In this document: piece after piece, positions 26,557 through 45,416 of the stretch
Numbering within the stretch: the stretch's first letter is position 1
How the letters are laid out: each line of letters opens with the position of its first letter
From: Chloroflexota bacterium
GTDB lineage: Bacteria; Chloroflexota; Anaerolineae; Anaerolineales; Villigracilaceae
Direction of reading: 5' to 3'
NCBI GenBank assembly: GCA_016235425.1
Contig: JACRLC010000092.1
Location: 1 to 64,000, forward strand
Length of the DNA stretch: 64,000 bases
Notes under the pieces: model-generated
What the model saw: only the letters and a program-made list of their open reading frames with translations
Database searches by the model: none
What the model was told of the DNA's origin: nothing
Made by a program: the position numbers and the translations under genes

Positions 26557-29517
26557 TTACTTCGGTAATTTATACGCCTCTTTGGTTGGCTTGAGAGGGC
26601 GCGCCAGCCAATAGGGACGGCGATTGCCATCGGGGCTGACTATGTCCGCGGGGCGGGTTAACTTCAACCACTCGCGGTATTTTTCCATGGATTTGTTCGT
26701 ATCCACGAAGAGGTCGCCAGCGCGTTCGTTCGGCTCCGCCTTGCGGATGCTCAGCACCTTTTGCAGCCAGCAGTGGACTCCGCTGACGGGGTCGGGGTGG
26801 ACGGCGTGGGTGAGATTCTGCGAGACGCCGACTTCGCTCCACCAGATGCGGCTCGTGTCGGGGTCGGAGGATTTCCACGCTTGCGCGCCGTGAATGACTC
26901 GCAAAAGGAATCCACCTTTGCCGTCTTCGTTGAGTTCCACAAGATTCGATGCGCCGCGATTGACGCCTGAATCTTCCTGGAAGCGGAATCGTCCAAGATG
27001 ATGACTGATGGCAATCACGCCAGGTTTGATTCCTTCCGTGACCCAAACGCTATCCACGAAGTAGCCGATTTCAGTTTCCACGCGGGCGAGGTCGCCTGTC
27101 TCGACTCCGATACGCTTTGCATCGTCGGGGTTTATCCAAATCGGATTCTTGTGACTGATTTCGTACAACCACTTTGCGTTTGCACTGCGCGTGTGAATCA
27201 ACGTTGGCAGGCGGAAGTTGGGAAGCAAAATCATCTCGCCTTTTTCGCGGTTGATAAAGTCGGGATGGACGTGACTCTTCACCGACCACGGGATGATGTT
27301 TTCTTTTTCGGACCAGCCCCAATTGGCTAACGTGTCGCTGAAGAACTCCAATTTCTTGCTGGGCGTATCAAACCCGGCTTTGGGCTGTCCATCCACCATC
27401 AAGCCAAGGACCGCGCCAGAAGAGTTGAGGACGCGGTCATGTTCATCGAAGGCAAAGCCAGCCTCGGGTCCAGAATGCGGCGTCCCCACAGGGGAAAGCG
27501 TTTTATCGAAGGGGGAGTAATTCTCCTTCTTGACTTCAAACACTCCATACTTTCGCATGTAGTCCAGCGGAGTCAATCCTTCTTTTGCTGCGGCTTCGGG
27601 GAGTCCTGGAACGGAGTTCTCGAAAATCCAACGATAGTATTCTTCGACGGTGATAATCTCGCCCTTGCGGTAGGGACTCTCGAACCACTGGCGGACGCCG
27701 AGCGAACCGTCGGGATCCATGTGCGCCGAGAGTTGTATCCAGAACTCGTTTTCCTCCCAGACCTCGCCAGGGTTGGCCTGATGTGTGAAATCCACCTTGA
27801 TGCCCGCGCGTTCCATCGCCACGCGTCGGACAGGCTGACGGAAGGCAATCCACTGACCCGAATGCGTTTCCTGACTCATGAGATCGTGACGTTCGGGGCC
27901 GAGGCCCATCGGCAAAACATAATCGGCGAACCAGGCGGATTCATTCCACGTAGGCGTGAGTGCGACGAAACATTTGATTTTGGATTCGTCCTTGAACGCC
28001 TTGAGCCACATAAAGCCGTCGGGGTTGACCCAGAGCGGGTTGTAGACGCGGGTGAAGTATACGTCAATGTCGCCGCGGCCTTCTTCGAGCATGTGCGGCA
28101 GGAGGATGGACATTTCGTAATGCGCGAGGGGATACTCGATGGGGTAGTGAAGTTCGTTCCACGTTTCAGGGGCGGGCGCGCCTTTGAACGGCTTTGGCAC
28201 AAACTTGTTCCAGTTGATCATGGATGTTCCGCCAAAATTTCCGATGCTTCCCGTGAGGACGTTGAGGAAAAAGAGACAGCGCGAGACCTGCCATCCGCCG
28301 AGGTTGCCGACGCTGGCGCTTCGCCAAACGTGTGTGGCAAGTTTGCCTTCGCAGTTGGCAACGTATTTCGCGGCTTGCTGAATGCGCTCGATGGGAACGT
28401 CGGATTCCTGGGCGGCGCGCTCGAAGGTGTATTCGCTGTAGAGAGTCTTCAAGACCTTGTCAAACGTGTCGAAGGTAAGTGGTGACACCTGCACTTGCGT
28501 GCGGTGCAAGTGTTGGGGATCGGTAATTAGTGGGCGGACTGAGTCCCATTCGTTTGAGGTGGATGATTGGACGAATTGAAGGAATTCCTTCCAGTTAACC
28601 CACTTGCGGACGAAGTCTTTGTCGTAGAGGTCGTTTTGGATGAGGTGATTGGCAATGGCGAGGAGAATTGTATTTTCGCTTCCAGGCCAGGTGGGAAGCC
28701 ACGCGTCGCTCATCGAGGCGGTGTTCGAGAGGCGCGGGTCGAAGGTGATGAGTTTCGCGCCATCGGTCTTGGCTTCGATGATGCGCTGGGCGTGCGGGTT
28801 GAAGTAATGTCCCGTTTCGAGGTGGCTTGAGATGAGCAGGATGACGCGCGCGTTGGCATAATCGGGACTCGGCCTGTCCTGTCCAATCCAGAAGTTGTAA
28901 CCTGCGCGAGAACTTGATGAACAAATATTGGTGTGGCTGTTGTGACCATCCATGCCCCAGGTTTGGACGATGCGGTTGGTGTATCCATCTTCGCCAGGGC
29001 GGCCAACATGGTAGACGATTCCGTTGGGGCGGCGTTTCTTGCTCGCGCGCATTTTCTCCGAGATTTCAGATAAGGCTTGCTCCCATGAGATGCGCTCCCA
29101 TTTGCCTTCGCCGCGTTTGCCGACTCGTTTCAATGGATACAAAATCCGCTCAGGGTCATAGACCTGATTATGGGTGGCTGGGCCTTTGGCGCAGTTACGT
29201 CCGCGGCTGCCAGGGTGGACAGGATTGCCTTCAAACTTGCGTACTTCGTAAGTGTCCTTGTCCACATAGGCGAGAAGCCCACAGGCGGATTCACAGTTGA
29301 AGCAGACGGTCGGGACGAGGGTGTATCGGCGTGCAACGCGCTTGGGCCATTCCTTGCCGTCCCATTCGACCCAGTCGTCCCACACATCGGGAGGCGGATA
29401 CTGGCTGATGCGCCCATCGGGGTGGACGACTTCGGTCAATTTGATGGGTTTGCGGTCGGAGGCGGCGAATTGAGGGACAGCAGTGCCTGCGGAGGTTTTA
29501 GGAGGGGTTTGGGTCAT
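26557..29517 (-). CDS. soeA: SoeA-like molybdopterin oxidoreductase catalytic subunit
   Basis: The 986-residue protein belongs to the DMSO reductase/complex iron-sulfur molybdoenzyme family. A [4Fe-4S] motif C72-x2-C75-x3-C79-x29-C109 is followed by HTNICSSSSRAG with probable Mo-ligand Cys199 and a C-terminal molydopterin-binding domain. There is no Tat signal, so it should work in the cytoplasm. This, its length, the partner FeS/NrfD subunit, and the neighbouring sHdr genes fit SoeA, which oxidises sulfite to sulfate. Polysulfide reductase or formate dehydrogenase relatives cannot be ruled out by eye. It is preceded by a 214-base gap carrying a repeat. Confidence 0.7.
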   Translation of the reverse strand: MTQTPPKTSAGTAVPQFAASDRKPIKLTEVVHPDGRISQYPPPDVWDDWVEWDGKEWPKRVARRYTLVPTVCFNCESACGLLAYVDKDTYEVRKFEGNPVHPGSRGRNCAKGPATHNQVYDPERILYPLKRVGKRGEGKWERISWEQALSEISEKMRASKKRRPNGIVYHVGRPGEDGYTNRIVQTWGMDGHNSHTNICSSSSRAGYNFWIGQDRPSPDYANARVILLISSHLETGHYFNPHAQRIIEAKTDGAKLITFDPRLSNTASMSDAWLPTWPGSENTILLAIANHLIQNDLYDKDFVRKWVNWKEFLQFVQSSTSNEWDSVRPLITDPQHLHRTQVQVSPLTFDTFDKVLKTLYSEYTFERAAQESDVPIERIQQAAKYVANCEGKLATHVWRSASVGNLGGWQVSRCLFFLNVLTGSIGNFGGTSMINWNKFVPKPFKGAPAPETWNELHYPIEYPLAHYEMSILLPHMLEEGRGDIDVYFTRVYNPLWVNPDGFMWLKAFKDESKIKCFVALTPTWNESAWFADYVLPMGLGPERHDLMSQETHSGQWIAFRQPVRRVAMERAGIKVDFTHQANPGEVWEENEFWIQLSAHMDPDGSLGVRQWFESPYRKGEIITVEEYYRWIFENSVPGLPEAAAKEGLTPLDYMRKYGVFEVKKENYSPFDKTLSPVGTPHSGPEAGFAFDEHDRVLNSSGAVLGLMVDGQPKAGFDTPSKKLEFFSDTLANWGWSEKENIIPWSVKSHVHPDFINREKGEMILLPNFRLPTLIHTRSANAKWLYEISHKNPIWINPDDAKRIGVETGDLARVETEIGYFVDSVWVTEGIKPGVIAISHHLGRFRFQEDSGVNRGASNLVELNEDGKGGFLLRVIHGAQAWKSSDPDTSRIWWSEVGVSQNLTHAVHPDPVSGVHCWLQKVLSIRKAEPNERAGDLFVDTNKSMEKYREWLKLTRPADIVSPDGNRRPYWLARPLKPTKEAYKLPK

Positions 29518-29619
29518 GGATTTCTCATGTTTCGTGGTGCGTGATACGTAATTCGTAATTGATGATTGGTAATTGGCAGAACGTGATGCTTGAAATCAGA
29601 TTTTGATTTTGGTAGGCGG

Positions 29620-29735
29620 TGATTCGGCGGAATGAATTCCTGCCTCAGTACCTGAAAGTCCGTTGAAACGGGCTTGCCCGTCAACCCGAAGGGTTTTCAC
29701 GAACTGAGCAGGTGGCTTCAGCCCCGCTCGTTCAC
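29620..29735. repeat. REP-like palindromic repeat between soeA and soeBC
   Basis: GGCGGAATGAATTCCTGCC, then TTGAAACGGGCTTGCCCGT, and a terminal GGCTTCAGCCCCGC form several small stems, a pattern seen in REP/RAYT-like intergenic repeats. It nearly fills the 214-base gap; the rest (29530-29575) is TAATTGG-type low-complexity sequence. Confidence 0.5.
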
Positions 29736-31381
29736 GAATTCGGAATATGCTGCGGCGCCATTACGAAGGCGTATTCGTAGAAGAACAAGCCGACGAGGGT
29801 ACATGCAACAGCAACGGGCAGGGCAAATGTGCTGAATGCGAAGAACAACGCCAGCGGGACAACGTGTCCCAGCGTGATACCGCCCCACCAGTAGTGATTG
29901 CGGAAGCGTCCGTGGGTCATTTCGCGGTGGGCAAGCAAGGCAACTTCGGAGGCGAAGGAGTTGAATTTGCCAGCAAGTGTCAGGAGCAGGTTGATTGCGA
30001 TGCCGGCAGGGAAGAGGACGGCGAGAAGCCTATGCAAGTCAGCGGGGAAGGTGACAAATGCGCTCAAGGCGAGGAAGACGCCGCTTGCGGCCATCATGGA
30101 TTGCGCGAACAGTTGGAATGGAAGAAGCGGGTTTTGCCACATGTCGCGTCCCTCGGCCTGGCCGAGGAGGAAGGCGGTGTAGATGACAACACCTAACGCG
30201 AACGGGAAGACAATCCACGCCGCAAACGGGCGGACAGTTGCTGCTGTTTCGATGGGCAGGATTCCAACTTGAGCCGCGCCTTCGAGTAACCACCACAAAC
30301 CTGCTACCGCTGTAAATGTGACCATGATGTACGCGCCGCGCGCGACCCATGATTTCCACTGCGGGCGGAGCAGGATGTTCAGGAATCGTTTGGGTTGTGA
30401 CAGGTCTTTGATGAGCAGGATGGTCGTGAGAAGCATGAAGACCATCGCGGTGAAACCTGCGGCGAGGAAGGTCAGCGAGTCGAAGGCGAATGCGCCAAGT
30501 CCCGCGCCGAGGCTGAGGAGCATGAAGAGTCCGCCCGCGATGTTTTTGGTGACGAGGTAGGATGGCAATTCCCAGTGCCAGTTGATTTTGTGTTGGGCGT
30601 TGTAGGCGACTTGAACCATGTGCTCGGCGACTCGTCCACCGATTTGAACGGGGCCGTTTAGCGGACGTCCCTGTTCCTGCGGGGTGCGGATGGGAGTCCC
30701 AGATTTGGATTTTGATTTATCACCCGACCCGCCGCTAATTACAGGCAGTTCATACGCTGACACATTCTGTTCGGTGATTTTGTCGGCCCACATGAATGAG
30801 CCAGATGCGGACGCGGCAGAGGGGTGAAGCGACCAGTCGTTGCCGTTGATGTAGAAGAGTTTCGGCCCCGTCCCCTGCTCGGGCTTGCGAACTGTCGCTT
30901 GCGCGGAAGCAAGCGTTCGGGCGATTTCCGAAGCGGGGTCGTTTAAGTCCCCAGCCAAAATCGCATGTTCTGGGCAGACGACAACACAGGCGGGTTCGAG
31001 TCCCACATCAATGCGGTGAGCACAGAAAGTGCATTTGGCGGCGGTGTTGGTTTCGGGGTCGAGATAAATCGAGTCGTAGGGGCAAGCCTGCATGCAGGAT
31101 TTGCAGCCAATGCAAATGCTCGGGTCAAACTCGACAATGCCGTCGTCGCGCTGGTACATCGCGGTGACGGGACAGATGCGCACGCACGGCGGGTTGGCGC
31201 AGTGATTGCAACGAGTCACCTGAAAGCGGCGGCGCACGTCGGGGTACTCGCCCGTTTCAACATACTTGACCCACGTGCGATACACGCCCAGCGGCACCTG
31301 GTTCTCGGATTTGCACGCGGTGGAGCAGGCGTGACATCCGATGCACTTGCTTTGGTCAATCAAGAATCCGTAATTTGTCAT
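29732..31381 (-). CDS. Fused SoeB/SoeC-like FeS and NrfD-type membrane subunit
   Basis: Residues 1-200 are a four-cluster ferredoxin subunit (CIGCHACSTAC, CNHCANPPCVRICP, CIGCKSCMQACP, CTFCAHR...CVVVCP). After a low-complexity linker, residues about 255-549 hold eight or so hydrophobic segments of the NrfD/PsrC type, which bind quinone. In most organisms these are two genes. The fusion would carry electrons from the molybdoenzyme to the quinone pool. The start at 31381 (MTNYGFLIDQSKCIGC) is preferred over 31411. It lies 84 bases after the lipoate ligase. Confidence 0.85.
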   Translation of the reverse strand: MTNYGFLIDQSKCIGCHACSTACKSENQVPLGVYRTWVKYVETGEYPDVRRRFQVTRCNHCANPPCVRICPVTAMYQRDDGIVEFDPSICIGCKSCMQACPYDSIYLDPETNTAAKCTFCAHRIDVGLEPACVVVCPEHAILAGDLNDPASEIARTLASAQATVRKPEQGTGPKLFYINGNDWSLHPSAASASGSFMWADKITEQNVSAYELPVISGGSGDKSKSKSGTPIRTPQEQGRPLNGPVQIGGRVAEHMVQVAYNAQHKINWHWELPSYLVTKNIAGGLFMLLSLGAGLGAFAFDSLTFLAAGFTAMVFMLLTTILLIKDLSQPKRFLNILLRPQWKSWVARGAYIMVTFTAVAGLWWLLEGAAQVGILPIETAATVRPFAAWIVFPFALGVVIYTAFLLGQAEGRDMWQNPLLPFQLFAQSMMAASGVFLALSAFVTFPADLHRLLAVLFPAGIAINLLLTLAGKFNSFASEVALLAHREMTHGRFRNHYWWGGITLGHVVPLALFFAFSTFALPVAVACTLVGLFFYEYAFVMAPQHIPNS

Positions 31382-31465: not shown

Positions 31466-32551
31466 TTACGCAGCTTGCGGAGGAGTGACCGCGTTCATGA
31501 TGGCAGTTGTGAAATCGGCAGGCGTGACGCCGGGCGATTGAATGCTCAGGCGGTAATATGCTTCTTCGATTTTTGCTTTTAGCGTTTCGGGGGTGGCTTT
31601 CATGCCGCGCAGAGACTGTTCCAACGCACCCAACGCAAATGACGGAAGCAGCGTGAAGTCGCCCGAAATGGAGACGTCATCAATGCGGCCTTCGCGCAGA
31701 CGGGCAATAACCCGAATCAAACCGCCCTGTGCCTTGAACGCCGCTTCGACGATGTGCACATCCTGATGGATTTTCACGCCCTGCTGTTGCAGTCGCCCCT
31801 TTTGATACAGCCACTCATCGGACGTGAAGCGCGCGTCAATCTCCTGCGCCATCGCTTCCTCTTCAGCTGTCCATTCGCCTTCGTAGACTTCCATGCCCAA
31901 CGCTTCGGAAACCTTCTTCATGTAAAGGTCTTTGACCATCGCGCGGTCGGGCGTGGAACCGAGTTGCTCGGTCATCGTGGTCATATACGCTTCCAGCGAC
32001 TCGAAAATCTTGTCGCGCATTTTCTCCGAAGGGACCTTGAGCACCTTCGACATGGTCTTCTTGTCGAAGGTGTACATCAAACTGCCGACAACGACTTCCG
32101 CGATTCCCATCTGCGCCGCGCCTGTGCCGCCGATTTTCTTTCCGCTGACATGCACATCGTTGATGGGACGATGGTTGGCATTGATCCCAAGCGCCTGATA
32201 CGTCCCCACGAGCGGGTCAATGTAGAGCTTGAAGCGTTCTTCCAGCGAAGACGGCAAATCGTTCTTGTGGAAAATCCACTGCGTGAACAATTGACCGTTA
32301 TCCAAATACACCGCGCCGCCGCCCACTTCGCGGCGGTACACGGACAGTCCATTTGCCGCGCAGTAATCCAGGTCAACTTCCTTTTGCATATCCTGGTGAT
32401 AGCCAATGCACACATAAGGCGCATTGGGTGAGACCATGATGATTGTATTGGGGGTGTCTTCCTTCATTGCGTATCCAACTGCGTGATAGACAGTCTGCGA
32501 GCGGAGTGGGGATACGCCTTCCATGTACAGCAAGCGGATTTTCTTGGACAT
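31466..32551 (-). CDS. Dedicated lipoate-protein ligase of the sHdr type
   Basis: The 361-residue protein has the LplA catalytic segments (RREVGGGAVYLDNGQL, NDVHVSGKKIGGTGAAQ) and a C-terminal accessory (LplB-like) domain with GGLIRVIARLREGRIDDV. Fused LplA/LplB ligases are known next to sHdr genes and lipoylate or octanoylate the lipoate-binding proteins. The two predicted acceptors lie directly upstream in the operon. No lipoyl synthase (LipA or LipS1/S2) gene is in the window, so lipoate is either scavenged or made by a gene elsewhere. Confidence 0.85.
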   Translation of the reverse strand: MSKKIRLLYMEGVSPLRSQTVYHAVGYAMKEDTPNTIIMVSPNAPYVCIGYHQDMQKEVDLDYCAANGLSVYRREVGGGAVYLDNGQLFTQWIFHKNDLPSSLEERFKLYIDPLVGTYQALGINANHRPINDVHVSGKKIGGTGAAQMGIAEVVVGSLMYTFDKKTMSKVLKVPSEKMRDKIFESLEAYMTTMTEQLGSTPDRAMVKDLYMKKVSEALGMEVYEGEWTAEEEAMAQEIDARFTSDEWLYQKGRLQQQGVKIHQDVHIVEAAFKAQGGLIRVIARLREGRIDDVSISGDFTLLPSFALGALEQSLRGMKATPETLKAKIEEAYYRLSIQSPGVTPADFTTAIMNAVTPPQAA

Positions 32552-32665: not shown

Positions 32666-33112
32666 TCAATCAATACATCTCAGGCAATTGATCTTCAATT
32701 CCTGTATTCTCGCCTTATACTTCTCAGCCGCTTCCTGACCTGTCACCAGATGGCCGCGTTCATTTTCCAAATCTGTCGGTCGCACCTTGACAATCCAGCC
32801 AGTGGTGTATGGCTCTTTATTTGCCAGCAGAATATCGCGTGCGAATCCTGCTTCATTTATTTCCACGATCTCGCACGAAAACGGAGCGGGGAACGGTCCC
32901 ACCCACTTGGCGGACTCAATCGTCGCCAGCGCCTTGCCTTGCGCAACCTTCTTCCCAACATCCCGAAAACTGATGGCGGCGATTTTTCCACAACGCGTCT
33001 GCGCGACATCGGTCATGCCGAGAGTCGCGACGTCGCCATCGAAGCGAATCCACACATCGCGTTCGACGTCGTAATACAAGTCTTCGGGGATGTCACAGGC
33101 GTAGAAAATCAT
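32666..33112 (-). CDS. lbpA: Lipoate-binding protein, second copy
   Basis: The 148-residue protein resembles glycine cleavage H protein, with the lipoyl-lysine Lys69 in ATIESAKWVGP. The Trp and Gly-Pro after the lysine fit LbpA rather than GcvH. LbpA carries sulfur intermediates on lipoate to and from the sHdr complex. Its N-terminus has CDIPEDLYYD and its C-terminus ends NCLRCID with a CxxC that the other copy lacks. No gcvP or gcvT is nearby, which argues against glycine cleavage. No clear ribosome site close to the ATG. Confidence 0.88.
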   Translation of the reverse strand: MIFYACDIPEDLYYDVERDVWIRFDGDVATLGMTDVAQTRCGKIAAISFRDVGKKVAQGKALATIESAKWVGPFPAPFSCEIVEINEAGFARDILLANKEPYTTGWIVKVRPTDLENERGHLVTGQEAAEKYKARIQELKINCLRCID

Positions 33113-33293: not shown

Positions 33294-33731
33294 TTACTCA
33301 AAATTCAAATTCTGCTCTTCCATAAACTTCTGATACGCTGCCACTGCCGCGTCGCCTGTCACCAGCGACGCGCTTTCGCCAGCCCAATCTGTCGGCTTGA
33401 CGCGCACGAACCAGCCCTCGCCATACGGGTCGCTGTTGATCAACGACGGCTTGGCTTTCATCGCCTCATTCACTGCAACAATCTCACCCGTCACAGGCGA
33501 TGTGACAGGTCCCACCCATTTGCCGCTTTCGAGCGTCCCCGCCGATTTTCCTTTTTGCACGGTGCGTCCCGCCTCTTTTGGAGTCGCATTCACGATCCCC
33601 TTGGCCAGATGTTGCGCCACATCGGTAATGCCAATCGTCACCGAGCCGTCCGCTTCGAGCCGCGCCCAGGCATGTTTTTCCACCCAGTAGCAGCGGTCTT
33701 CTGGAATGCTGCACCCTCGCACAGTTGCCAT
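33294..33731 (-). CDS. lbpA: Lipoate-binding protein, first copy
   Basis: The 145-residue protein is the closer match to sHdr-linked LbpA: lipoyl-lysine Lys71 in GTLESGKWVGPV, IGITDVAQHLAKG upstream, and INSDPYGEGWFVRVKP downstream. An AAAGGAG site precedes the ATG. It starts 15 bases after the zinc-finger gene, so the two are probably coupled. Together with the copy at 32666 it offers two distinct carriers, which could serve different steps or partners; that is inference. Confidence 0.9.
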   Translation of the reverse strand: MATVRGCSIPEDRCYWVEKHAWARLEADGSVTIGITDVAQHLAKGIVNATPKEAGRTVQKGKSAGTLESGKWVGPVTSPVTGEIVAVNEAMKAKPSLINSDPYGEGWFVRVKPTDWAGESASLVTGDAAVAAYQKFMEEQNLNFE

Positions 33732-33746: not shown

Positions 33747-34055
33747 TCACCCTCTCCCCTCGGGAGAGGGAAGGGGTGAGGGTATTCCATGTTCACCTTG
33801 CAGGTGATACAGGAGCAAATCAAAAATGACCAACCGAATCTCGTACTCATATTCTCGCGCAAAATTCGGATCGCGGCGCGCCTTCTTTGTAACTTGCTCA
33901 TAGCTATCGCCGCATACGGGACACGTTACAATGAAAAAGGTGTGACCCGTAAACTCATCCACTCGCGTGCCCAACGTATCGCCGTGACTCTCTGCCAGGT
34001 GATTGTGGACTTCGGATCGCTTACCGCTAAACTCACAATAAGGACATTTCCACAT
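33747..34055 (-). CDS. Small two-zinc-finger protein in the sHdr operon
   Basis: The 102-residue protein has a first finger C4-x2-C7...H19-x4-H24 (CPYCEFSGKRSEVHNHLAESH without gap) and a second C45-x2-C48...H84-x4-H89 (CPVCGDSY ... YHLQGEH). The segment between has a basic helix. I do not recognise the family. The position between the membrane FeS protein and the lipoate carriers suggests a regulatory, metal or assembly role in the pathway. The C-terminus ends inside a repeat. Confidence 0.65.
   Translation of the reverse strand: MWKCPYCEFSGKRSEVHNHLAESHGDTLGTRVDEFTGHTFFIVTCPVCGDSYEQVTKKARRDPNFAREYEYEIRLVIFDLLLYHLQGEHGIPSPLPSPEGRG
33751..33782. repeat. CCCTCTCCCC-GGGAGAGGG palindrome
   Basis: A short perfect-like palindrome CACCCTCTCCC...GGGAGAGGGAAGGGGTG overlaps the 3' end of the zinc-finger gene. 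It encodes the non-conserved tail IPSPLPSPEGRG of that protein, so the true C-terminus may have been replaced by repeat insertion. Confidence 0.55.
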
Positions 34056-34228: not shown

Positions 34229-36325
34229 TCACGCGGGACTTGGAGCGGGTTCGGCTTCGATGGGCATTTCCACGCCGACGGCTTCCGCCACCAACTGAAT
34301 AATGTCGCGGACCTCGATCTTGCCTTCGTTGCCCGTCGTTTTGACCGCGTCCGAATACATGACCATGTCTTTCGGGCAGGTGACGATGAACAGTTGCTTC
34401 TTGTCGCTTGAGTTCTTCTCAAACGTGGTCAGCGCTTCCCTGATTCGATTCTCTGCAGGACGTTCACCAGGAGCGACCTTGCCCATCCAAATCTGACCGC
34501 CGCCCGCACCACAGCAGAATGAATTCTCGCAGTTACGCGGCATTTCATGGAAGTCCACGCCCAGCAGTTCGAGCAATTTGCGCGGCGCAGTGAATCCGCC
34601 GTTGTAGCGACCGAGGTAGCATGGGTCGTGGAATGTGACCTTGTAATGAGACAGTTTGTTCTTGACGGTCAACTTGCCTTCTTCAAACAACTTGAGCAAG
34701 GTCACAGTGTAATGCTTGACTTCAAACTTCCCGCCAAATTGCGGGTACTCGTTCTTCAACGTGTTGAACGAGTGCGGGTCAGTGGTGACGATTTGCTTGA
34801 ACTGCGCTTTGCCGAAGGCTTGCATATTCTGCTCGACCAACTGCTCGAACAGACCTTCTTCGCCCACGCGTCTAACATCATTGCCCGCATTGGACTCGTT
34901 CTGATACATAATGCCGAAATCCAAACCTGCCTGATTGAAGATACGCGCGACCATCTTCGTGTTCGGGATGACGCGCTCATCGAATGAAGCTGTGTCACCC
35001 ACAAACCAGAGATTCTCCACCGGCTCTTCGGTCGCGTTCTTGACGGGGAATTCCATCTCCTTTGCCCAGCGTCCGCGCAGACGTTTGCCTTTGCTCATCC
35101 AGTTGCCGTTCGTGGCAAGGGACTGCAAGGCGTTCTGTACGCCGCTGTCAATTTCCGCGCCGTCTATCAACATGCGGCGGCGGATGTCAATGATGTCTGC
35201 CATCGGTTCGTTGCCGACAGGACACACGCGGACGCAGGCATAACAGGTTGTGCAAGACCAGATTGCCTCAGGGGAGATGACTGTCTCAGTCAACGGAAGC
35301 AGGAGTCGGTCGGGGTGTGAGCCGAAGGTCGCCTCTTTAATGAGATAACGCTTGTTGACCTCCAATGCCGAAGGTGAGAGCGGGCGTCCATAGAAATTCG
35401 CAGGGCAGACATCCTGACAGCGATTGCATTGCACGCAGGCGTAGGAATCCAAAACGCGCTTCCAGGAGAGGTCATGCAAAAATTTCGCGCCAGGGTCGTA
35501 GTGATTGCCGTTGACCACCTTGAGCGGAACAGCGGGGTCGAGCTGCCCGTGCGGATTTTGTTTGGCGAGGCCGAGATTGACGGGACCGACTGTGAAGTGC
35601 GTGTGCTTGCTGCGCGTGATGTAGGGCAGAATGTAAAGCACCCAGGCGATACTGACCCACCACGCGATGTGAAGACCCGTTTGCGAAGCGCCGAAGATGC
35701 TGTTGAGAAAACTTGCAATCGGCATGAACGGATCTGCACCAGTATCAAGACGATACGCCTGACCAAGCAAACGCGCCGCAACGTGCATGACCACGAAGAG
35801 ACCAACAGTAGCGGAATCTTTTTGATGCGCGCCCGCCTTGACCTTTGGATTCAGCAAAACGTTTTCGCGATAGTTGAGGCGCTTGTCCTTGACAACAAAA
35901 CGCCGCATCATCATGACCGCGATACTGAAGAGAAGCGCGCCACTCATCAGGTCGGCGATGAGGTTGAAGGCGTTTATGATTCCCGCGGGCAGAAATGTGA
36001 ACGCGAAATTCCTGCCGCCGTAGATCAACTCGAAGCCAGGGATGAATCCTTCCAGCACGTCCACGAGATTGACGAAGGCATAGGTGATGAGACCGAAGAA
36101 CAGCCCAAGATGAATTGTGCTCAAGACCTTGCGAGCCTTGAAGATGGTGCGTTGAAAGAGGACCGCAACCCCCGCCTTGAGCAAGCTCGAAGGAACGTTC
36201 TTCAACTCAGGTGTGGGTCGTCCCTTGCGGACTGAGTCAACAATAGTTTTTATTCCATGAATTGTGAACCCCGCCGATACAAGTGCCAACAAGATGAAGA
36301 TTACTTTTTCAATCGTAGTGAGCAA
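34229..36325 (-). CDS. Membrane ETF:quinone oxidoreductase-like FeS protein (EtfD/EMO type)
   Basis: Residues 1-240 carry about five hydrophobic segments like the heme-binding NarI/DsrM gamma domain. Then come two [4Fe-4S] motifs (C297-C307, C358-C368) and a C-terminal HdrB-like CCG region (DPCYLGRYNGG, SFCCGAGGG, TCPKD). This layout matches membrane FeS proteins that pass electrons between electron transfer flavoprotein and menaquinone. It directly follows etfB-etfA, so it is the obvious exit for electrons from the sHdr system to the respiratory chain. A reversed, energy-using role is possible. Length 698 residues. Confidence 0.85.
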   Translation of the reverse strand: MLTTIEKVIFILLALVSAGFTIHGIKTIVDSVRKGRPTPELKNVPSSLLKAGVAVLFQRTIFKARKVLSTIHLGLFFGLITYAFVNLVDVLEGFIPGFELIYGGRNFAFTFLPAGIINAFNLIADLMSGALLFSIAVMMMRRFVVKDKRLNYRENVLLNPKVKAGAHQKDSATVGLFVVMHVAARLLGQAYRLDTGADPFMPIASFLNSIFGASQTGLHIAWWVSIAWVLYILPYITRSKHTHFTVGPVNLGLAKQNPHGQLDPAVPLKVVNGNHYDPGAKFLHDLSWKRVLDSYACVQCNRCQDVCPANFYGRPLSPSALEVNKRYLIKEATFGSHPDRLLLPLTETVISPEAIWSCTTCYACVRVCPVGNEPMADIIDIRRRMLIDGAEIDSGVQNALQSLATNGNWMSKGKRLRGRWAKEMEFPVKNATEEPVENLWFVGDTASFDERVIPNTKMVARIFNQAGLDFGIMYQNESNAGNDVRRVGEEGLFEQLVEQNMQAFGKAQFKQIVTTDPHSFNTLKNEYPQFGGKFEVKHYTVTLLKLFEEGKLTVKNKLSHYKVTFHDPCYLGRYNGGFTAPRKLLELLGVDFHEMPRNCENSFCCGAGGGQIWMGKVAPGERPAENRIREALTTFEKNSSDKKQLFIVTCPKDMVMYSDAVKTTGNEGKIEVRDIIQLVAEAVGVEMPIEAEPAPSPA

Positions 36326-37462: not shown

Positions 37463-38221
37463 TTACGCGAGTCCCTTGCTCTTCAACAACTCCACAATCT
37501 TCGCCGCGACTTCTTTCGACGAACCCGTGAACATCTCCGCATGACCTGTCACAACGGGCGGAGCCATCTTCTTCATGGACAGTCCCGCGCCCGCACCATC
37601 AGCAGATGGACTAATCTTTTCAATCGTCGCAGTCTGCGCGACTTGTCTCACTTTGCTGACAGGTGCATAGCGCGGCGGCTTGGGCGCGGCTTGCACGCCA
37701 ACCACTATCGGCAAACTGACGGAATATTTGCCTGCATTGCCGCCCGCGAATTCCTTGGTCACGATGGCAGTCCCCTCTGCGGCTTCGACGGAACTGACTC
37801 CACCGATATATGGCATATCGAGATAGGCGGCAATCATCGGCCCGATTTGACCGTCGAGGTCATTGGAGGCCTGCACACCCGCGAAGACTATGTCGGGCGA
37901 CATCCCTTTTATCGCCTCCGCCAGCCATTTGGCCTGTTGATGCGAATCCGCGCCTGGCTCATCAGCAGTGACCTTGACCGCCTTGTCCGCGCCTTTTGCC
38001 AGCGCGAGATGGAGAACGTTATCAAGTTCCCCAATCAAATCCACACCGACGACGGTCACCGTCCCACCGACGGCTTCCTTCACCAGCACCGCCTGCTCGA
38101 TGGATTGCTCGTCGAATTCGTTGAGCACGAAATCCACCGAGTCAAAGTCCACATTATTGCCTTTGACGGGCAGGTCATCGGCAATGCTGGGGATGTGTTT
38201 GATAGCGACGACTATGTTCAT
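37463..38221 (-). CDS. etfB: Electron transfer flavoprotein beta subunit
   Basis: The 252-residue protein shows the ETF beta pattern: NIVVAIKHIPSIADDLPVKG at the N-terminus, VLNEFDEQSIEQAV, the DIVFAGVQASNDLDGQIGPM adenine-nucleotide region, and the C-terminal recognition-loop area. AGGAGAG precedes the ATG. It is upstream of etfA, as usual, and downstream of the HdrCB-type FeS protein, fitting the ETF-containing sHdr gene layout. Confidence 0.93.
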   Translation of the reverse strand: MNIVVAIKHIPSIADDLPVKGNNVDFDSVDFVLNEFDEQSIEQAVLVKEAVGGTVTVVGVDLIGELDNVLHLALAKGADKAVKVTADEPGADSHQQAKWLAEAIKGMSPDIVFAGVQASNDLDGQIGPMIAAYLDMPYIGGVSSVEAAEGTAIVTKEFAGGNAGKYSVSLPIVVGVQAAPKPPRYAPVSKVRQVAQTATIEKISPSADGAGAGLSMKKMAPPVVTGHAEMFTGSSKEVAAKIVELLKSKGLA

Positions 38222-38403: not shown

Positions 38404-39687
38404 TCACTGCTCTCCGCGCATTGACCTATCCAACAACTCCAAGATATCGTTCACGGTCACATGCTCATTACCCGTTGACTTGACCGCGTCTTCAAAGCGC
38501 GAGACTTCAAATGGGCAAGCCACGGCCAGCACGTTCGCACCCGTGGAAGCGGCTTCCATGGCGCGCTTTTCCGATAGGCGCATTTTGGTGTGCTTGGCAG
38601 TGAATGAGTCCATCCACATACCGCCGCCACCGCCGCCGCAACAATAGCCGTTTTCGCGGTTGCGGGACATTTCAACCAATTCCACGCCAGGGATGGCTTC
38701 CAGCAGTTTACGCGGCGCTTCGTATTCGCCGTTGTGGCGGCCGAGATAACACGGGTCGTGGTACGTCACTTTTACGTTGACTTCGTGCTTGAGCAACGGC
38801 TTGAGTTGGTCAAGGTAGCGGGCGAGGAAGGTAGTGTAGTGAAGCACAGGCCGCTCAAATCCGTATTTTGGATAAACGTTTTTGAAAGCGTTGAGTTCAT
38901 GCGGCCCAGTGACGACCAATTCTTTCCATTCGTAACTATTGAATGTGGCGATGTTGTGTTCCGCCATCATTTCAAACAAACCTTTTTCACCAGCCAGGCG
39001 CTGGGAGTCGGCGTCGTCTTTTTCTTCCTTGCCGAGGACGGCGAAGTCAATGCCGAGGGCGGTGAAGATTCGTGCCGCCGCGGACGCCGCGTCAATGCCG
39101 CGCGGGTGATAGGACGGATACGAACCAACATACCAAAGCACATCCACAGGGCGACCCAAATCTTTGATGATCGGTATGGGCACCCCCGCGTTCTGAATCC
39201 ACGCATCGCGTTTGCGCTGCGGCTGTCCAAGTGGATTGCCTGACTTGGCGGTGTTCTCGAAAGCCTGCTGTAATTCAGGTGGGACAAACTTGCCGTCAAG
39301 GATTGCCTGCTCACGCGCGGCAGGCATGATCTTGACCATGTTGACTTCTTTGGGACAGACCCGCAGGCAGTTGGCGCAGGTGGTGCAGAGCCAGAGCTCG
39401 GGCGCTTCGGTCAAGTCCGTGCCTGTTTGGGCGTAACGATAAAGTTTGCGCGGGCCATAATTGCCGACCACATCCACGGGGCAGACCGCGACACATTTGG
39501 CGCACTGATAACAATTCGCAAATGATTCCGCATTCGGAATGGACGCGACCTTTTCAATCAGTTCGGGCGTGTACTCGAAGATGACACGCTGTTCGAACAT
39601 GCGGTTCCAATGACCAGAAACATCCACGCCGTCTACCACGGCATGTTCTTTTTCCACTGCTTTGACTTTTTCATACTTGACGGCCAT
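38404..39687 (-). CDS. HdrCB-type FeS oxidoreductase of the sHdr operon (sHdrB3-like)
   Basis: The 427-residue soluble protein has two [4Fe-4S] motifs (C59-C69 and C101-C111) and one usable CCG region (DPCYLGRHNGE, YCCGGGGGGMW, ACPFE), while the first CCG half has no cysteines. The layout is the same as the soluble part of the membrane protein at 34229, which it resembles closely. In place of the separate hdrC2 and hdrB2 of the better-known sHdr clusters this single gene is found next to etfBA, as in the ETF-containing variant. It probably passes electrons from sHdrA/C1/B1 to ETF. Confidence 0.8.
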   Translation of the reverse strand: MAVKYEKVKAVEKEHAVVDGVDVSGHWNRMFEQRVIFEYTPELIEKVASIPNAESFANCYQCAKCVAVCPVDVVGNYGPRKLYRYAQTGTDLTEAPELWLCTTCANCLRVCPKEVNMVKIMPAAREQAILDGKFVPPELQQAFENTAKSGNPLGQPQRKRDAWIQNAGVPIPIIKDLGRPVDVLWYVGSYPSYHPRGIDAASAAARIFTALGIDFAVLGKEEKDDADSQRLAGEKGLFEMMAEHNIATFNSYEWKELVVTGPHELNAFKNVYPKYGFERPVLHYTTFLARYLDQLKPLLKHEVNVKVTYHDPCYLGRHNGEYEAPRKLLEAIPGVELVEMSRNRENGYCCGGGGGGMWMDSFTAKHTKMRLSEKRAMEAASTGANVLAVACPFEVSRFEDAVKSTGNEHVTVNDILELLDRSMRGEQ

Positions 39688-39712: not shown

Positions 39713-39801
39713 GGTGCGTCGCACCATGTTTAGTGGACGAATCTCCTCGATTGGTCTATCTTGTTAAACGGGATTCTGCTCATCTGTCAGGTGCGACGCA
39801 C
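39713..39801. repeat. GGTGCGTCGCACC inverted repeat pair
   Basis: GGTGCGTCGCACC (39713-39725) and AGGTGCGACGCAC (39789-39801) flank the gap before the HdrCB-type gene. The right copy lies inside the last codons of the DUF1641-like gene, so the protein's tail may derive from a repeat. Confidence 0.5.
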
Positions 39802-40573
39802 TTCCTGTCTTTGGCAATCCCAACAACTTCCTCGCCATGTTCGGCAGAGTGGGCAACAACCCATTGAATTCGCGGCTCAATCTCCAACTTGTTGTGCCAT
39901 ACAAATACACACTATAAGCACAAGCTAAAAATGAACTGTTTGCAAACGGCGCTCGTTTCTTATCATTCATCAACTCGTCAACCAACAAGCCTGTGCCTTC
40001 CGCGAATTTCATGCTCATGGCTGTGACCGAACCGACGCGGGCATATCCATCCGCGAGATTTTCCGAGACAAGATTGTGAATGCTCCCGGCAAGCAATGGC
40101 AGAATACCTGTGCCTGTCGTTGGATCCCAAAGCCAGCGAGTCCACAGCCAGTTGTCGGTGGGGGAGGTGTTGTGTAAAAGTCCAGTGGCTAGTTCGAGTG
40201 CCAATCTTGTATCGAGTGCATTCAACTTTTCAACGAAGACTGCAGCTCGAACGGGTGTCGGCGCTTCGCCATTTAGTAATTCATCGAAGAGTTCGGTTTC
40301 ACCTTGAGCGAAGTAATTGGTGATTGTTCTCGCGTTCGCTCGCGTGTGTGTGACAGCGGAAGCGATGTCAGCGAAGGAGGATGTTAATTTAGCGGAGTCA
40401 GTTTCAAGTCCAGAAAAGAGGCGTGCCTGTCGTGTGGAGAGTTCGTCAGCGATGGAAATTAAATCATCTGGTGAGACTTGTCCCAACGCGTTCTGCAAAT
40501 TGGCTTGCAGTTCGGGGTCGTCGGGGCCCGTCTTTTGCTTGATGATGTGACTCTGTCGCTGCGGAAGTGTCAT
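39764..40573 (-). CDS. DUF1641-like accessory protein of sHdr operon
   Basis: The 269-residue protein has no cofactor-binding cysteines and is mostly helical. Its position directly after shdrA, overlapping by ATGA, matches the conserved hypothetical (DUF1641-type) gene of sHdr clusters. The segment LATGLLHNTSPTDNWLWTRW and GSIHNLVSENLADGYARVGS are recognisable as conserved-looking blocks. It is thought to be a structural part of the complex. The last residues overlap a repeat. Confidence 0.7.
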   Translation of the reverse strand: MTLPQRQSHIIKQKTGPDDPELQANLQNALGQVSPDDLISIADELSTRQARLFSGLETDSAKLTSSFADIASAVTHTRANARTITNYFAQGETELFDELLNGEAPTPVRAAVFVEKLNALDTRLALELATGLLHNTSPTDNWLWTRWLWDPTTGTGILPLLAGSIHNLVSENLADGYARVGSVTAMSMKFAEGTGLLVDELMNDKKRAPFANSSFLACAYSVYLYGTTSWRLSREFNGLLPTLPNMARKLLGLPKTGSASHLTDEQNPV

Positions 40574-41720: not shown

Positions 41721-41723
41721 GTT

Positions 41724-41896: not shown

Positions 41897-41973
41897 CAAA
41901 TTACTTTTTACAAATTACCAATTACTTCTCTTGTTTACTTGTTTACCTGTCTATCTATTTACCTGTGTACTTC

Positions 41974-43191
41974 TTACGCGTACACCACAGGCTTATCCGC
42001 GTCTTCCCAGGTGATGCCAGATTTCGTGCCCGCGCGGATGGCGTCGAGGTCAGACTGGAATTCGTCCCAGTATTTCTGCCAGTTGATTCCGAGCTTGTCG
42101 AGGAACGGACGCCAATCCGTGGAGTGCCAGTGGAACTGCACCACGCGGAAGGGATGCGCGCCCATTGCCAGCGCGGCGACTTGCGCGTCGGACAACACGG
42201 GGATGCCCACTTTGCGGTCGTGCGCCTTTGCCGCGAATTGACTCTTGTCCAGCGTGGTCACGCAGCCTGTGTCGTGAGTCACGGTCAAGTCGGGATTGGC
42301 TTCGTTCTTCATCGTTTCGATTTTGCGAAGCACGGCAAACGAACGAGTGAAGTCGCGTTGCACCAACACGTGACGGAAGCCAAATCCACAGCAATCGAAC
42401 CACGTCGAGTAATCTGCGACGTTGATGCCGAGCGCTTCAAGCACGGCGGTGACGACTGCGGTGCGTTGCCCACCGTAGATGTCGGGGTCGTAAATCGCGT
42501 CTTCAGCGACGATTTTGTAGTAATGGCAGGCGGGATGCACCGTCGCGGTAATGGGACTCATATCCACCACTTGTTTCTCCGCGAACTTGTTTCGCATGAC
42601 GTGAACCCACTCGCTGTAATGGACAATCTCTTCGGGGATAACCAATGGCTTGCCCATCTTGTCCAGGATGCGGCGGACGTCATCGCGCAATTCCTTGTGA
42701 TGGACAAGTTGCTCGCGGATTTCCTTGTAATGTCCATAGGATGTGCCGCAGTGAATCATCGGGAAGTATCCCGTTTGATATGCGGCGGAGAAGTTACGGC
42801 TCATCACCGCGGCTTGCGCGGATGCGTTCGATGTGGCGGAAGCATAGTAGTTCCAGCCTGTGCAGGAGGTCTGGTCAGTGGGGTCGAGGTAGTCGAGTCC
42901 GAACTGGCGATGAAGCCAGAAAATGGACGATGAATAGCCGGGAATGTGTCCACACTGTCCGCAGGATTTGTGGTGCCAGGTATGCTCGATGGGAATCTTT
43001 TTCGTGCGGCCATACTTGGTGACCATTTCGACATATGGCTCAGGGACTCTTTGAACGATAATCTCGCCCTTCGCTTCGAGTTCAAATAAAGTCTCGCGGA
43101 TGTCATGCGTTGGCGCGACGTTTGGATCGCGCGTCACGGCATGGGATTTTCTCTCGAGGATTTGTTCGACGGTGGTCAGGTTTTCGGTCAT
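41974..43191 (-). CDS. shdrB1: sHdrB1-type subunit with two CCG-like domains
   Basis: The 405-residue protein is HdrB-like. Its first CCG half has C77, C80, C110 and C148; its second has C222, C267, C268 and C310. In each half the last cysteine of the canonical Cx31-39CCx35-36CxxC pattern is missing (Ser151 and Thr313), so non-cubane clusters may be altered. This subunit is thought to handle the sulfur substrate. The start at 43191 is chosen because GGAGAG lies 8 bases before it; the ATG at 43206 has no ribosome site. Confidence 0.85.
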   Translation of the reverse strand: MTENLTTVEQILERKSHAVTRDPNVAPTHDIRETLFELEAKGEIIVQRVPEPYVEMVTKYGRTKKIPIEHTWHHKSCGQCGHIPGYSSSIFWLHRQFGLDYLDPTDQTSCTGWNYYASATSNASAQAAVMSRNFSAAYQTGYFPMIHCGTSYGHYKEIREQLVHHKELRDDVRRILDKMGKPLVIPEEIVHYSEWVHVMRNKFAEKQVVDMSPITATVHPACHYYKIVAEDAIYDPDIYGGQRTAVVTAVLEALGINVADYSTWFDCCGFGFRHVLVQRDFTRSFAVLRKIETMKNEANPDLTVTHDTGCVTTLDKSQFAAKAHDRKVGIPVLSDAQVAALAMGAHPFRVVQFHWHSTDWRPFLDKLGINWQKYWDEFQSDLDAIRAGTKSGITWEDADKPVVYA

Positions 43192-43238
43192 GGTGTCTCT
43201 CTCCATTTCTCAGGGTAGATAAAACCAATAATTTGTTA

Positions 43239-43325: not shown

Positions 43326-43327
43326 GG

Positions 43328-44035
43328 TTATCCTTCCTCAAGTTCCTCCTGCATGACATCTGCCAGCAGGTCGTACAAACCTTCGTCAATTTCCTTGATG
43401 ATGTCCATATTGCCTGTCTCGAACCAAATCGTGTAGAGTTCAAGCAGGGTCTTGCGATCGGTGCGCCAGGCCGCGTCGGTGACGCCGCGCAGGGTGTCCA
43501 CGGGAATCGCCTTGCGCCAGACGGGCATGTTGGCGGAGAATTCCTTCACCCACGGGCCCCAATCGGGAAAGAAATCGGGTTGGAGCATATCGGGCGAGAC
43601 CTGGTTACCTTTGAGCATGACTTTGTAAATCACGCGGCTGTAACCTTGCAGAACATCCTTGGTTTCCTGCAATCCATTCTTGACCGCGACTTCGCGCAGG
43701 AGGGTGACAAGTCCGCCAGGGTTATTTCCACGCGGACAGCGCAGGCACGAGAAGCATTGCGCGCAATTCCAGATGTCTTCCGAGATGATGTCGTAGACGC
43801 GTTCGATGTCTTCGCGTGCCATCGCCTGTGCAATGACGCGCGGACTGTAATCATAGAATCGCGCCGAGGGACAAGTGGAGACGCAAATGCCGCACTCGTA
43901 ACAGCCGTAGAGAAAATCGCTGTAGCGCGGGTCATTTTTGACTTCGAGGAAGAGGCGTTCCTTCTCGTCGTAAGTCACATCGGGGTGACGGTTTTCCGCT
44001 TTGCCTGGATTCCAGCTTTCGATTGTGGTAGGCAT
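43328..44035 (-). CDS. shdrC1: sHdrC1 ferredoxin-like subunit
   Basis: The 235-residue protein has two [4Fe-4S] motifs, C45-C48-C51-C55 (CYECGICVSTCP) and C91-C94-C97-C100 (CAQCFSCLRCPRGNNP), of the HdrC type, and a helical C-terminus. AGGAGG precedes the ATG. It is the first hdr gene of the operon, followed by shdrB1 and shdrA, the same order as in known sHdr clusters. Confidence 0.9.
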   Translation of the reverse strand: MPTTIESWNPGKAENRHPDVTYDEKERLFLEVKNDPRYSDFLYGCYECGICVSTCPSARFYDYSPRVIAQAMAREDIERVYDIISEDIWNCAQCFSCLRCPRGNNPGGLVTLLREVAVKNGLQETKDVLQGYSRVIYKVMLKGNQVSPDMLQPDFFPDWGPWVKEFSANMPVWRKAIPVDTLRGVTDAAWRTDRKTLLELYTIWFETGNMDIIKEIDEGLYDLLADVMQEELEEG

Positions 44036-44051
44036 AACGCCTCCTGAGAAA

Positions 44052-44131: not shown

Positions 44132-44133
44132 TT

Positions 44134-44529
44134 CTAAAACGCAATCACCGCGTCTGCATTGCAAGCCATGTCGTTGAAGGCCGCTCCGCCGATCATCTCG
44201 ACGCCTTCGATCATGTCGTCCATGGTGTAGCCGTGCAGGTCGAGCGAAGGCTGGCAGACGAGGAGCCGCACGCCGATCTCCTGCGCCTGATCAATGAAAA
44301 ATTTCAATTCCTTTCCATTGCCGCCCTTGCGAGGGATGATGATTTTGTCACCGTTGTCCTTTGCCACACATTGCGGACCGTTCATGGTGAAATAAATGCA
44401 CACTTCGTTGTCCATGGCCGCGCCCGCCGTCGCGAGGAAGAACGGAGTCGCGGTGCGCTCCGGGTCTTTTTCCCCATGCGTTTGGACGTAAAGAATTTTT
44501 TTGACATCAGGGTCATTGGTTTTCCACAT
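44134..44529 (-). CDS. DsrE3-like sulfurtransferase
   Basis: The 131-residue protein is a DsrE-fold protein with the conserved Cys92 in RLLVCQPSLDLHGY, matching DsrE3-type carriers linked to sHdr genes. It should pass persulfide sulfur from TusA toward the sHdr complex. The start at 44529 has AGAGG before it and begins MWKTNDPDVKKILYVQTHG; the reading from 44562 adds an unlikely leader. Other cysteines (44, 54, 123) could be accessory. Confidence 0.85.
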   Translation of the reverse strand: MWKTNDPDVKKILYVQTHGEKDPERTATPFFLATAGAAMDNEVCIYFTMNGPQCVAKDNGDKIIIPRKGGNGKELKFFIDQAQEIGVRLLVCQPSLDLHGYTMDDMIEGVEMIGGAAFNDMACNADAVIAF

Positions 44530-44620
44530 TGTTTTGAAACCTCTTGGTAGGCAGGCACACAAGTAAACAAGTACACAGGTCTTCCGTGTTTACCTATGTA
44601 CTTGTCTCCGTGTCTACTTG

Positions 44621-45145
44621 CTAGACAAACAACTGCACATCCGCATCCGCGGCATACTCAAGGAAGGTTGCCGCGCCGCCAATCTCGCACTCCTTGATGA
44701 AGTCCTCGCGCTTGAAGCCAAAGACATCCATCGTCATCTGGCAGCCGATCAGGCGCACATCCATTTCCACGCATACCTGGCGCATTTCCTCGATGGATGC
44801 AACGCCTTTGTTCTCGAAGGTCTGCTTCATCAAGGTGGTTGCCAGCGCATTGAAACCGGGCACGTTTGACATGATCAACTGCGGGATCGGCCAGTTGATG
44901 TTTTGGAAACTTTCGGGGCCGAAAGGCATCTTCATCGGCATGGCGGGGTTGCCTACGGGCGTGACCGCCGCCGTGAGTTGAGGCTTGAGCAGGGTCAGAC
45001 CGTAGAAGGTAAAGAAAATGCCCACCTCCCAGCCCATCGCGCCAGCCGCGCTGGCGAGAATGAATGGGGGATAGGCCCAGTCGAGTGTACCTTTGCTTGC
45101 AATGAGTGCGAGCCGCTTCGGGGCGTTTGGGTCGGATTTTGACAT
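44621..45145 (-). CDS. DsrE2-like sulfurtransferase
   Basis: The 174-residue protein belongs to the DsrE/F family in its DsrE2-like branch, with Cys135 in RLIGCQMTMDVFGF and a further Cys125. A hydrophobic part near residues 25-60 (YPPFILASAAGAMGWEVGIF) might touch the membrane. GGAG precedes the ATG. It is 32 bases after tusA, so it is probably the direct partner of TusA in sulfur relay. Confidence 0.85.
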   Translation of the reverse strand: MSKSDPNAPKRLALIASKGTLDWAYPPFILASAAGAMGWEVGIFFTFYGLTLLKPQLTAAVTPVGNPAMPMKMPFGPESFQNINWPIPQLIMSNVPGFNALATTLMKQTFENKGVASIEEMRQVCVEMDVRLIGCQMTMDVFGFKREDFIKECEIGGAATFLEYAADADVQLFV

Positions 45146-45176
45146 GATGTTTCTCCGTATTAAATTTTTGGCCTAA

Positions 45177-45416
45177 TTACTTGGTACGACGAATAAAGAA
45201 GACGAACTTGCCATCCTCCTGCATGGAGCGGAGCAGTTCGTTCCCTGTTTGCCGGCTCCAGGCTTCCATATCGGGCGGCGCGCCGGGGTCAGTGGCAACC
45301 ATCTTCAAGACTTGTCCAACTTCAAGTGTCTTGATTGCCTTCGATGCCTTGACCACCGGCATGGGACACAGCATCCCTGAACAATCGAGAACCTGGTCTT
45401 CCTTGATTACATCCAT
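45177..45416 (-). CDS. tusA: TusA sulfurtransferase
   Basis: The 79-residue carrier has the signature Cys17-Pro-Met-Pro (MLCPMPVVKASKAI) that carries a persulfide. Cys12 is an extra cysteine. A near-perfect AAAGGAGG site is before the ATG. It is the first gene of the sulfur operon and the donor for the downstream DsrE-like proteins. The strong promoter at 45482 lies upstream. Confidence 0.93.
   Translation of the reverse strand: MDVIKEDQVLDCSGMLCPMPVVKASKAIKTLEVGQVLKMVATDPGAPPDMEAWSRQTGNELLRSMQEDGKFVFFIRRTK

Follow-up and report, generated by a model that had tools for sequence, protein, structure and literature searches.

Type II sulfur-oxidizing heterodisulfide reductase-like (sHdr) systems have been defined by shdrC1B1AHB3 and etfAB lying in one syntenic cluster (PMC11582611), and the Etf-bearing Hdr-like clusters correspond to the 'Group III' of a 2018 eLife paper (PMC6067878). 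In the Chloroflexota, Thermomicrobium roseum carries a 19-gene cluster of this kind, which is reported to be up about 45-fold in persistence (PMC6776052). A sulfite oxidase has been proposed for Sulfobacillus (PMC4378227), the only type II sHdr group so treated in the portions of the literature examined. The sulfite-oxidizing SoeABC of Allochromatium and Aquifex, and by homology of Sulfobacillus, is cytoplasmic, has no signal peptide and combines molybdenum, Fe-S clusters and a membrane anchor (PMC8076601, PMC4378227). Here, we analyze a stretch of 64,000 nucleotides (the window) from a Chloroflexota bacterium (assembly GCA_016235425.1, contig JACRLC010000092.1, positions 1 to 64,000), in which a block of 17 genes places a type II sHdr system beside a membrane-anchored molybdenum enzyme with fused B and C subunits. 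We consider it probable that the genes of this block together specify a cytoplasmic pathway by which sulfane sulfur is converted to sulfate, ending in a Soe-like enzyme of a separate lineage.

The block occupies about 19 kb of the minus strand (26557-45416) in a genome of 5.0 Mb that is 99.6% complete. Its order is tusA, dsrE2, dsrE3, shdrC1, B1, A, H, B3, etfB, etfA, emo and a zinc-finger gene, followed by lbpA1, lbpA2, lplAB, the fused B-C subunit and the molybdopterin subunit (Table 1). The shdrC1B1AHB3 and etfAB genes thus lie in one syntenic cluster, H being assigned by position only, and, judged from its gene content, the sHdr half adds another member to the known type II (EtfAB) sHdr-LbpA kind, in agreement with the original prediction of an ETF-type sHdr with a single B3 subunit and EtfAB. 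Among solved structures, sHdrA is closest to 6tjr (312 bits), which we take to be the sHdrA of Hyphomicrobium denitrificans, the structure entry itself bearing a fumarate-reductase-type title; methanogen HdrA reached 226 bits or less, such that the protein does not side with the methanogen type, and the NCBIfam HdrA models remained far under their cut-offs. The two LbpA proteins are GcvH-like and carry the conserved lysine in ES[GA]KWVGP. The sulfur carriers, the two LbpA, the fused ligase and the electron exit that had been predicted were all recovered from gene content and domain matches. The resemblance to T. roseum trd_0160-0142 lies in the clustering of shdrC1B1AHB3 with etfAB, and T. roseum also has tusA, dsrE and three lbpA (PMC11582611, PMC6067878, PMC6776052), whereas in the window these genes are accompanied by the fused molybdenum enzyme and by a conserved pair of two-component genes. 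Elsewhere in the same genome (contig C5, 60001-80000), there is a separate canonical HdrA-HdrB-HdrC-FlpD set with histidine kinases, which has its own second set of EtfAB-Emo-HdrD-like genes.

The original prediction had assigned the molybdenum enzyme to Soe as a family, and this assignment was not supported. In Sulfobacillus species, including AMDSBA1, operons of three subunits have been described that belong to the SoeA/SreA branch and encode no signal peptides (PMC4378227). We found one A-B-C operon of the SoeA type in the S. benefaciens AMDSBA1 genome, presumably the operon described there, and like operons in three of three further Bacillota genomes. Four Sulfobacillus/Bacillota SoeA-type proteins served as a stand-in for the SoeA family, A. 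vinosum and Aquifex SoeA not being among them, and the catalytic subunit of the window matched these four at 26-30% identity over 246-262 residues (109-125 bits), which is no better than its match to PhsA or DmsA (142-143 bits). In contrast, a Tat-exported protein of the Azoarcus plasmid pAZKH was matched at 32% over 933 residues with 430 bits. A tree joined the fused-enzyme family to Azoarcus at 98/97 support, albeit with long-branch warnings. From the initial enzyme tree, 14 partial or duplicate rows had been dropped and one row trimmed; the subsequent trees, this one included, were built on selected subsets (45, 25 and 24 rows) after shortening of over-long N-termini. Forcing the fused family together with canonical (Sulfobacillus-type) SoeA was 21 log units worse, with p 0.066 in the approximately unbiased (AU) test, which does not formally reject this union.

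The remaining subunits differ as well. The anchor of the window enzyme is of the NrfD type (PF03916) as opposed to DmsC (PF04976) in both of the two Sulfobacillus-type anchors scanned, and the B and C parts form one protein in all complete family open reading frames (33 kept, 475-620 aa), the short complete B frames in that set being the four outgroup B subunits. Canonical SoeABC is therefore disfavored by sequence scores, tree and anchor, within the limits of the AU value, and the fused enzyme most likely represents a separate lineage that would work like Soe. With PsrABC/PhsABC and the Azoarcus enzyme it shares the cysteine ligand and, in the case of Azoarcus, an NrfD-type anchor, and these are its nearest sequence relatives; in distinction to the orientation predicted here, they face the periplasm and carry a Tat signal, and the charge bias of the Azoarcus anchor is the opposite one. 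In Alicyclobacillus tolerans, the frame that contains the catalytic subunit begins within the Fe-S gene, spans 1648 codons and is interrupted by one TAA.

On which side of the membrane this enzyme works can be estimated from export signals and anchor charges. A Tat-like signal was absent from all 68 family rows examined, a set in which some genomes are represented more than once. In eight of these rows an RR pair is present, but it immediately precedes the Fe-S motif and no hydrophobic stretch accompanies it; a Tat motif was present in three of three outgroups. Lysine and arginine were concentrated on the side of the fused Fe-S (B) domain in 29 of 29 aligned anchors (mean about 12.4 versus 1.8), this set having been reduced from 33 by removing four near-duplicates, with seven rather than eight helices called in the family alignment and four to eight in single sequences. 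Three periplasmic-type anchors with eight helices gave reversed sums (2:10, 4:8 and 5:15), and the two of four canonical SoeC for which eight helices were called showed the same bias as the family (20:0 and 24:3). An NrfD with ten helices gave 20:6, which is what two additional helices would be expected to produce. The fused enzyme thus seems to face the cytoplasm, as predicted from sequence and as is the case for SoeABC, and to lack the periplasm-facing, Tat-exported character of PsrABC/PhsABC. For SoeC, an inverted anchor has been predicted (PMC8076601), and the fused B-C protein would offer a second case.

The association of this enzyme with type II sHdr was evaluated in a sample of 400 Chloroflexota genomes, of which 26 were B3-positive (a match of at least 59% identity). 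The catalytic subunit was present in 23 of these 26, versus 40 of the 374 other genomes (Fisher p 1e-17, uncorrected for kinship). In 16 of the 23, spanning five family groups, it lay no more than 20 kb from the B3 gene, while in the remaining seven the two were on different contigs, three of these genomes belonging to one genus. Furthermore, among 80 named loci, 24 had genes of the fused-enzyme pair within the available flank. Fifty of the corresponding genomes were searched for the catalytic subunit, which was present in 39 and lay within 20 kb on one contig in 21 (hand count); a further locus, L111, has a contig ending inside the B-C gene. The linked named cases come from Chloroflexota, Thermomicrobiaceae, Actinomycetota, Gemmatimonadota, Myxococcota, Neomarinimicrobiota, another bacterium and a metagenome-assembled genome labelled Euryarchaeota; binning errors are possible. 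In T. roseum, the pair is found on the 918-kb plasmid, where its annotation goes no further than the domain names '4Fe-4S dicluster domain-containing protein' and 'molybdopterin-dependent oxidoreductase'. The arrangement had at first been called unusual; since the same pairing occurs in several bacterial phyla, it is better described as a recurring partnership than as an oddity.

How the partnership arose can be approached by comparing trees. The linked state changes at least seven times on the sHdr tree (51 coded rows; one incomplete locus and the canonical locus of contig C5 were left out), and the sHdr groupings were rejected for the Thermomicrobiaceae and Myxococcales enzyme copies (p 0.00014 and 0.00037), the groups having been picked after seeing the trees. 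With the same reservation, one ancestral unit of sHdr plus enzyme inherited intact was rejected for these two linked cases. This suggests that the pairing, as far as it can be traced in sequences, was assembled more than once, and such repeated joining would be a sign of functional coupling.

The fused enzyme is also found beside other sulfur genes. On plasmid pRHL3 of Rhodococcus jostii RHA1, dsrE, tusA, the fused B-C gene and the A gene adjoin two genes for MBL-fold/rhodanese proteins, and no sHdr genes were present in the stretch viewed. These proteins may be persulfide-dioxygenase-like; MBL-rhodanese fusions are mentioned as uncharacterized in PMC13047784. Two haloarchaeal plasmids carry TauE/SafE and a gene with a rhodanese domain beside the pair; on the one plasmid that was scanned, this gene encodes an MBL-rhodanese fusion. 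Among the 40 sampled Chloroflexota genomes that carry the enzyme without type II sHdr, 17 neighborhoods were viewed, and six of these had MBL-rhodanese, tusA or dsrE matches. A more far-reaching reading, for which we see the chances as evenly balanced, is that cytoplasmic sulfite:quinone oxidoreductases evolved a second time, independently, in this family, which would derive from a periplasmic NrfD molybdoenzyme by loss of the Tat signal, fusion of B and C and inversion of the anchor. In Chloroflexota, Actinomycetota, Gemmatimonadota, Myxococcota and haloarchaea, it would then be the enzyme that usually removes the sulfite formed by type II sHdr and by persulfide-oxidizing MBL-rhodanese proteins, and it would have been combined with sHdr several times over.

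From what was directly observed (gene content and order, homology, the absence of Tat-like signals, charge orientation and recurrent linkage), we infer the substrates, direction, electron path and lipoylation route of the proposed pathway as follows. TusA, DsrE2 and DsrE3 would hand sulfane sulfur to lipoate-bound LbpA, and the LbpA-bound sulfur would be oxidized to sulfite by sHdrC1B1A-H-B3. Electrons may exit via EtfAB and then the membrane protein Emo to the quinone pool. On the cytoplasmic side of the membrane, sulfite would then be oxidized by the molybdenum enzyme with its one-protein Fe-S/NrfD anchor, which is predicted to be reversed relative to the anchors of periplasmic reductases. 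In line with this route, no AprA match was obtained in the genome.

LbpA would be loaded by LplAB. As in the described sLpl(AB)-LipS1/LipS2 assembly, a ligase adjoins lbpA in the window, but neither LipS1 nor LipS2 was matched in the genome. For LipS2, this holds at E<=1e-60 with a query from a family member (two of 61 family genomes positive), and for LipS1 at E<=0.001 in a search without a positive genome; the queries themselves reached 208 of 270 bits for NF053743 and 228 of 230 bits for NF053742. LipA is present, and since neither LipS protein was found, it is probably the source of the lipoyl group. LipS2 was matched in 25 of the 50 named carriers, and 74.3% of sHdr bacteria are stated to have LipS1/S2 (PMC10332631), which puts the window in the minority. 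In a genome of the same family (G080, L039:13277-18287), a third lbpA, LipS1, LipS2 and two ligases stand where relatives have one LplAB; this slot is a swapped lipoylation module.

Several observations weigh against the proposed route to sulfate. The catalytic subunit was not found in three of the 26 B3-positive genomes and in 11 of the 50 named carriers, and four of four examined Bacillota genomes without the fused enzyme carry SoeABC-like operons instead. Of the 17 neighborhoods without type II sHdr, ten matched none of the sulfur queries and one matched lipoate genes only (a LipS module). Of the outside proteins compared, the one nearest to the fused enzyme is the Tat-exported Azoarcus plasmid protein and not a SoeA. 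Two of the four canonical SoeC controls were unclear or reversed (14:10 with six helices, 3:24 with seven), because fewer helices were called. As to the sulfur source, the genome encodes two SQR-like proteins that reach only 228.7 and 64.4 bits with the SQR type III model (cut-off 525), and SoxY was not matched in a search whose controls were silent too. Finally, no biochemical work on any member of the fused family was found in the literature searched.

Some of these points bear on a different purpose of the block, namely oxidation of thiols or organic sulfur, or detoxification of sulfide or persulfide, in starvation rather than lithotrophic growth. We regard this as a possible, though not the favored, explanation. 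The homologous T. roseum cluster responds to persistence, and a thiol-oxidizing role has been suggested for it (PMC6776052); the SQR-like proteins and the lack of a Sox match, with the above reservation, fit as well. However, such a role is compatible with the route to sulfate, in that the same enzymes would still yield sulfite and sulfate.

Alternatively, the molybdenum complex could be a reductase or use a substrate other than sulfite (polysulfide, sulfur, thiosulfate, tetrathionate or formate), its link to sHdr then serving to balance electrons; in our estimation, this is unlikely. In its favor, the NCBIfam model that comes closest is PhsA (208 bits, well short of the cut-off of 694), the closest structure is the Thermus entry 2vpw, which bears the title thiosulfate reductase, the nearest outside relative is exported, and 40 sampled genomes carry the enzyme without type II sHdr. 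Against this stand the predicted cytoplasmic orientation, which is unlike Psr/Phs, and the linkage to sulfite-making modules. Formate dehydrogenases have a (Se)Cys-His pair in the active site, whereas a serine follows the cysteine in 12 of 12 family rows shown. In these same 12 rows, the cysteine occupies the expected molybdenum-ligand position (motif HTN[IV]CS; ligand according to a table in PMC10100899). Least probable is that the complex is a bona fide SoeABC of the A. vinosum/Aquifex family, for which the cytoplasmic location, the cysteine ligand, the A-B-C composition, the sulfur context and the AU value of one clade with canonical SoeA would speak, as opposed to the low scores, the grouping with Azoarcus, the NrfD anchor and the B-C fusion.

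The existence of the block itself is well founded. All genes named in the original prediction are present on the minus strand, and matches to Pfam (searched with all 17 proteins) or NCBIfam (10 of 17) back every gene except the H gene, which has no family, and the zinc-finger gene (25.3 bits, cut-off 27.5). All Hdr, ligase and molybdoenzyme proteins scanned remained below NCBIfam cut-offs, and one LbpA exceeded that of a GcvH subfamily model. The label 'DUF1641-like' had to be given up for the H gene, which occupies the sHdrH slot of published clusters. Close relatives keep the same gene order at protein identities of mostly 70-97% (as low as 61% for H, and about 50% for emo in two of them), such that the block is not due to chance. 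The description as an unbroken block is correct here, where the gaps are -4 to 348 bases, but does not extend to two relatives (L092, L033) with gaps of up to about 3 kb, so that the layout is no proof of a single transcript. The assignment to Chloroflexota is supported by the 21 best named loci (85-96% B3 identity), which are all Chloroflexota/Anaerolineae.

Table 1. Genes of the block and the adjacent candidate regulators (window positions).
Feature	Coordinates	Strand	Basis
tusA, sulfur carrier, 79 aa	45177..45416	-	PF01206 79.8 bits; sole TusA match in genome
dsrE2-type sulfurtransferase	44621..45145	-	PF13686 161.9 bits
dsrE3-type sulfurtransferase	44134..44529	-	PF02635 61.4 bits; ATG start 44529
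shdrC1, Fe-S electron carrier subunit	43328..44035	-	Fer4_8; HdrC models under cut-off
shdrB1, proposed catalytic subunit	41974..43206	-	CCG domain PF02754; HdrB model 123 bits vs cut-off 450
shdrA, short flavoprotein, 351 aa	40570..41625	-	best solved relative 6tjr, 312 bits
shdrH-position gene	39764..40573	-	between shdrA and shdrB3; no Pfam match; place kept in relatives
shdrB3, fused C2-B2 type subunit	38404..39687	-	Fer4 + CCG; alignment
etfB	37463..38221	-	PF01012
etfA	36449..37396	-	PF00766 + PF01012
emo, membrane HdrD-type protein, proposed EtfAB quinone reductase	34229..36325	-	Fer4 + CCG; hydrophobic N-terminal part
small two-site zinc-finger-like protein	33747..34055	-	invariant Cys/His columns; AlphaFold model
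lbpA1, lipoate-binding protein	33294..33731	-	PF01597 125.6 bits; Lys71 in ESGKWVGP
lbpA2, lipoate-binding protein	32666..33112	-	PF01597 110.2 bits; Lys69 in ESAKWVGP
lplAB, fused lipoate:protein ligase	31466..32551	-	PF21948 129.3 bits, PF10437 25.3 bits
fused B-C subunit (Fe-S domain + NrfD anchor)	29732..31381	-	Fer4_11 + PF03916; likely start 31381
molybdopterin catalytic subunit, Soe-like in role	26557..29517	-	PF00384, PF01568, PF04879; trees
divergent sensor histidine kinase (GAF, HisKA_3), candidate regulator	45620..47350	+	domain matches
LuxR-type response regulator, candidate regulator	47337..47996	+	Response_reg + GerE; GTG start

The small zinc-finger-like protein has twelve invariant columns, including C4, C7, H17, H19, H24, C45, C48 and H84 (20-21 homologues), and an AlphaFold pLDDT of 85.7; no solved fold was matched at E<=0.001. 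In many type II clusters (Chloroflexota, Actinomycetota, Gemmatimonadota and Myxococcota), its gene keeps this place, with emo on one side and lbpA on the other. After the molybdenum subunit, the window has a CitMHS/TrkA_C transporter and a DUF2270 gene (23500-26380), one or other of which also follows this subunit in the relatives checked and which are perhaps concerned with handling of sulfate or sulfite. Further away (49275-57818), there is an open reading frame of 2847 aa with GT2, glucoamylase-like and GH94 domains, a set that we take to be that of cyclic glucan synthases.

With respect to regulation, the histidine kinase and LuxR-type regulator are candidates for controlling the block. 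The pair is at the same place in seven of eight relatives, the eighth (G318) having it about 4 kb upstream in the other orientation, and it is present in 13 named loci of the closer group, some from the same genomes as the fetched relatives. Within that group, L107 is without the pair in the 2.5 kb available, and L111 has the kinase alone in 2.4 kb. In six distant Anaerolineae loci (L112, L114, L117, L118, L119, L136), it lies upstream in the other orientation. It was not matched in about 4 kb before tusA in Thermomicrobium-type L123, L127 and L130 or in Chloroflexales L116, and L115 gave a weak match. A two-component regulator would be unlike the ArsR repressors of H. denitrificans (PMC11582611). 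There is a perfect match to -35/-10 elements, ending 65 bases upstream of tusA, but it is perfect in the window alone; as 20 relatives match just 7-10 of the 12 bases, it is not a conserved signal, and a conserved promoter was rejected. Terminator-like sites were equal in number to those in shuffled sequences (24 versus 23.1).

In the literature searched, which did not cover subscription papers, neither the fused enzyme nor a link between it and type II sHdr was found to be described. The fused enzyme would provide a concrete candidate for the sulfite oxidase of Chloroflexota with type II sHdr, T. roseum included. If this is true, the family would represent a membrane molybdoenzyme that switched its working side of the membrane, and the set of Chloroflexota possibly making sulfate would be widened.

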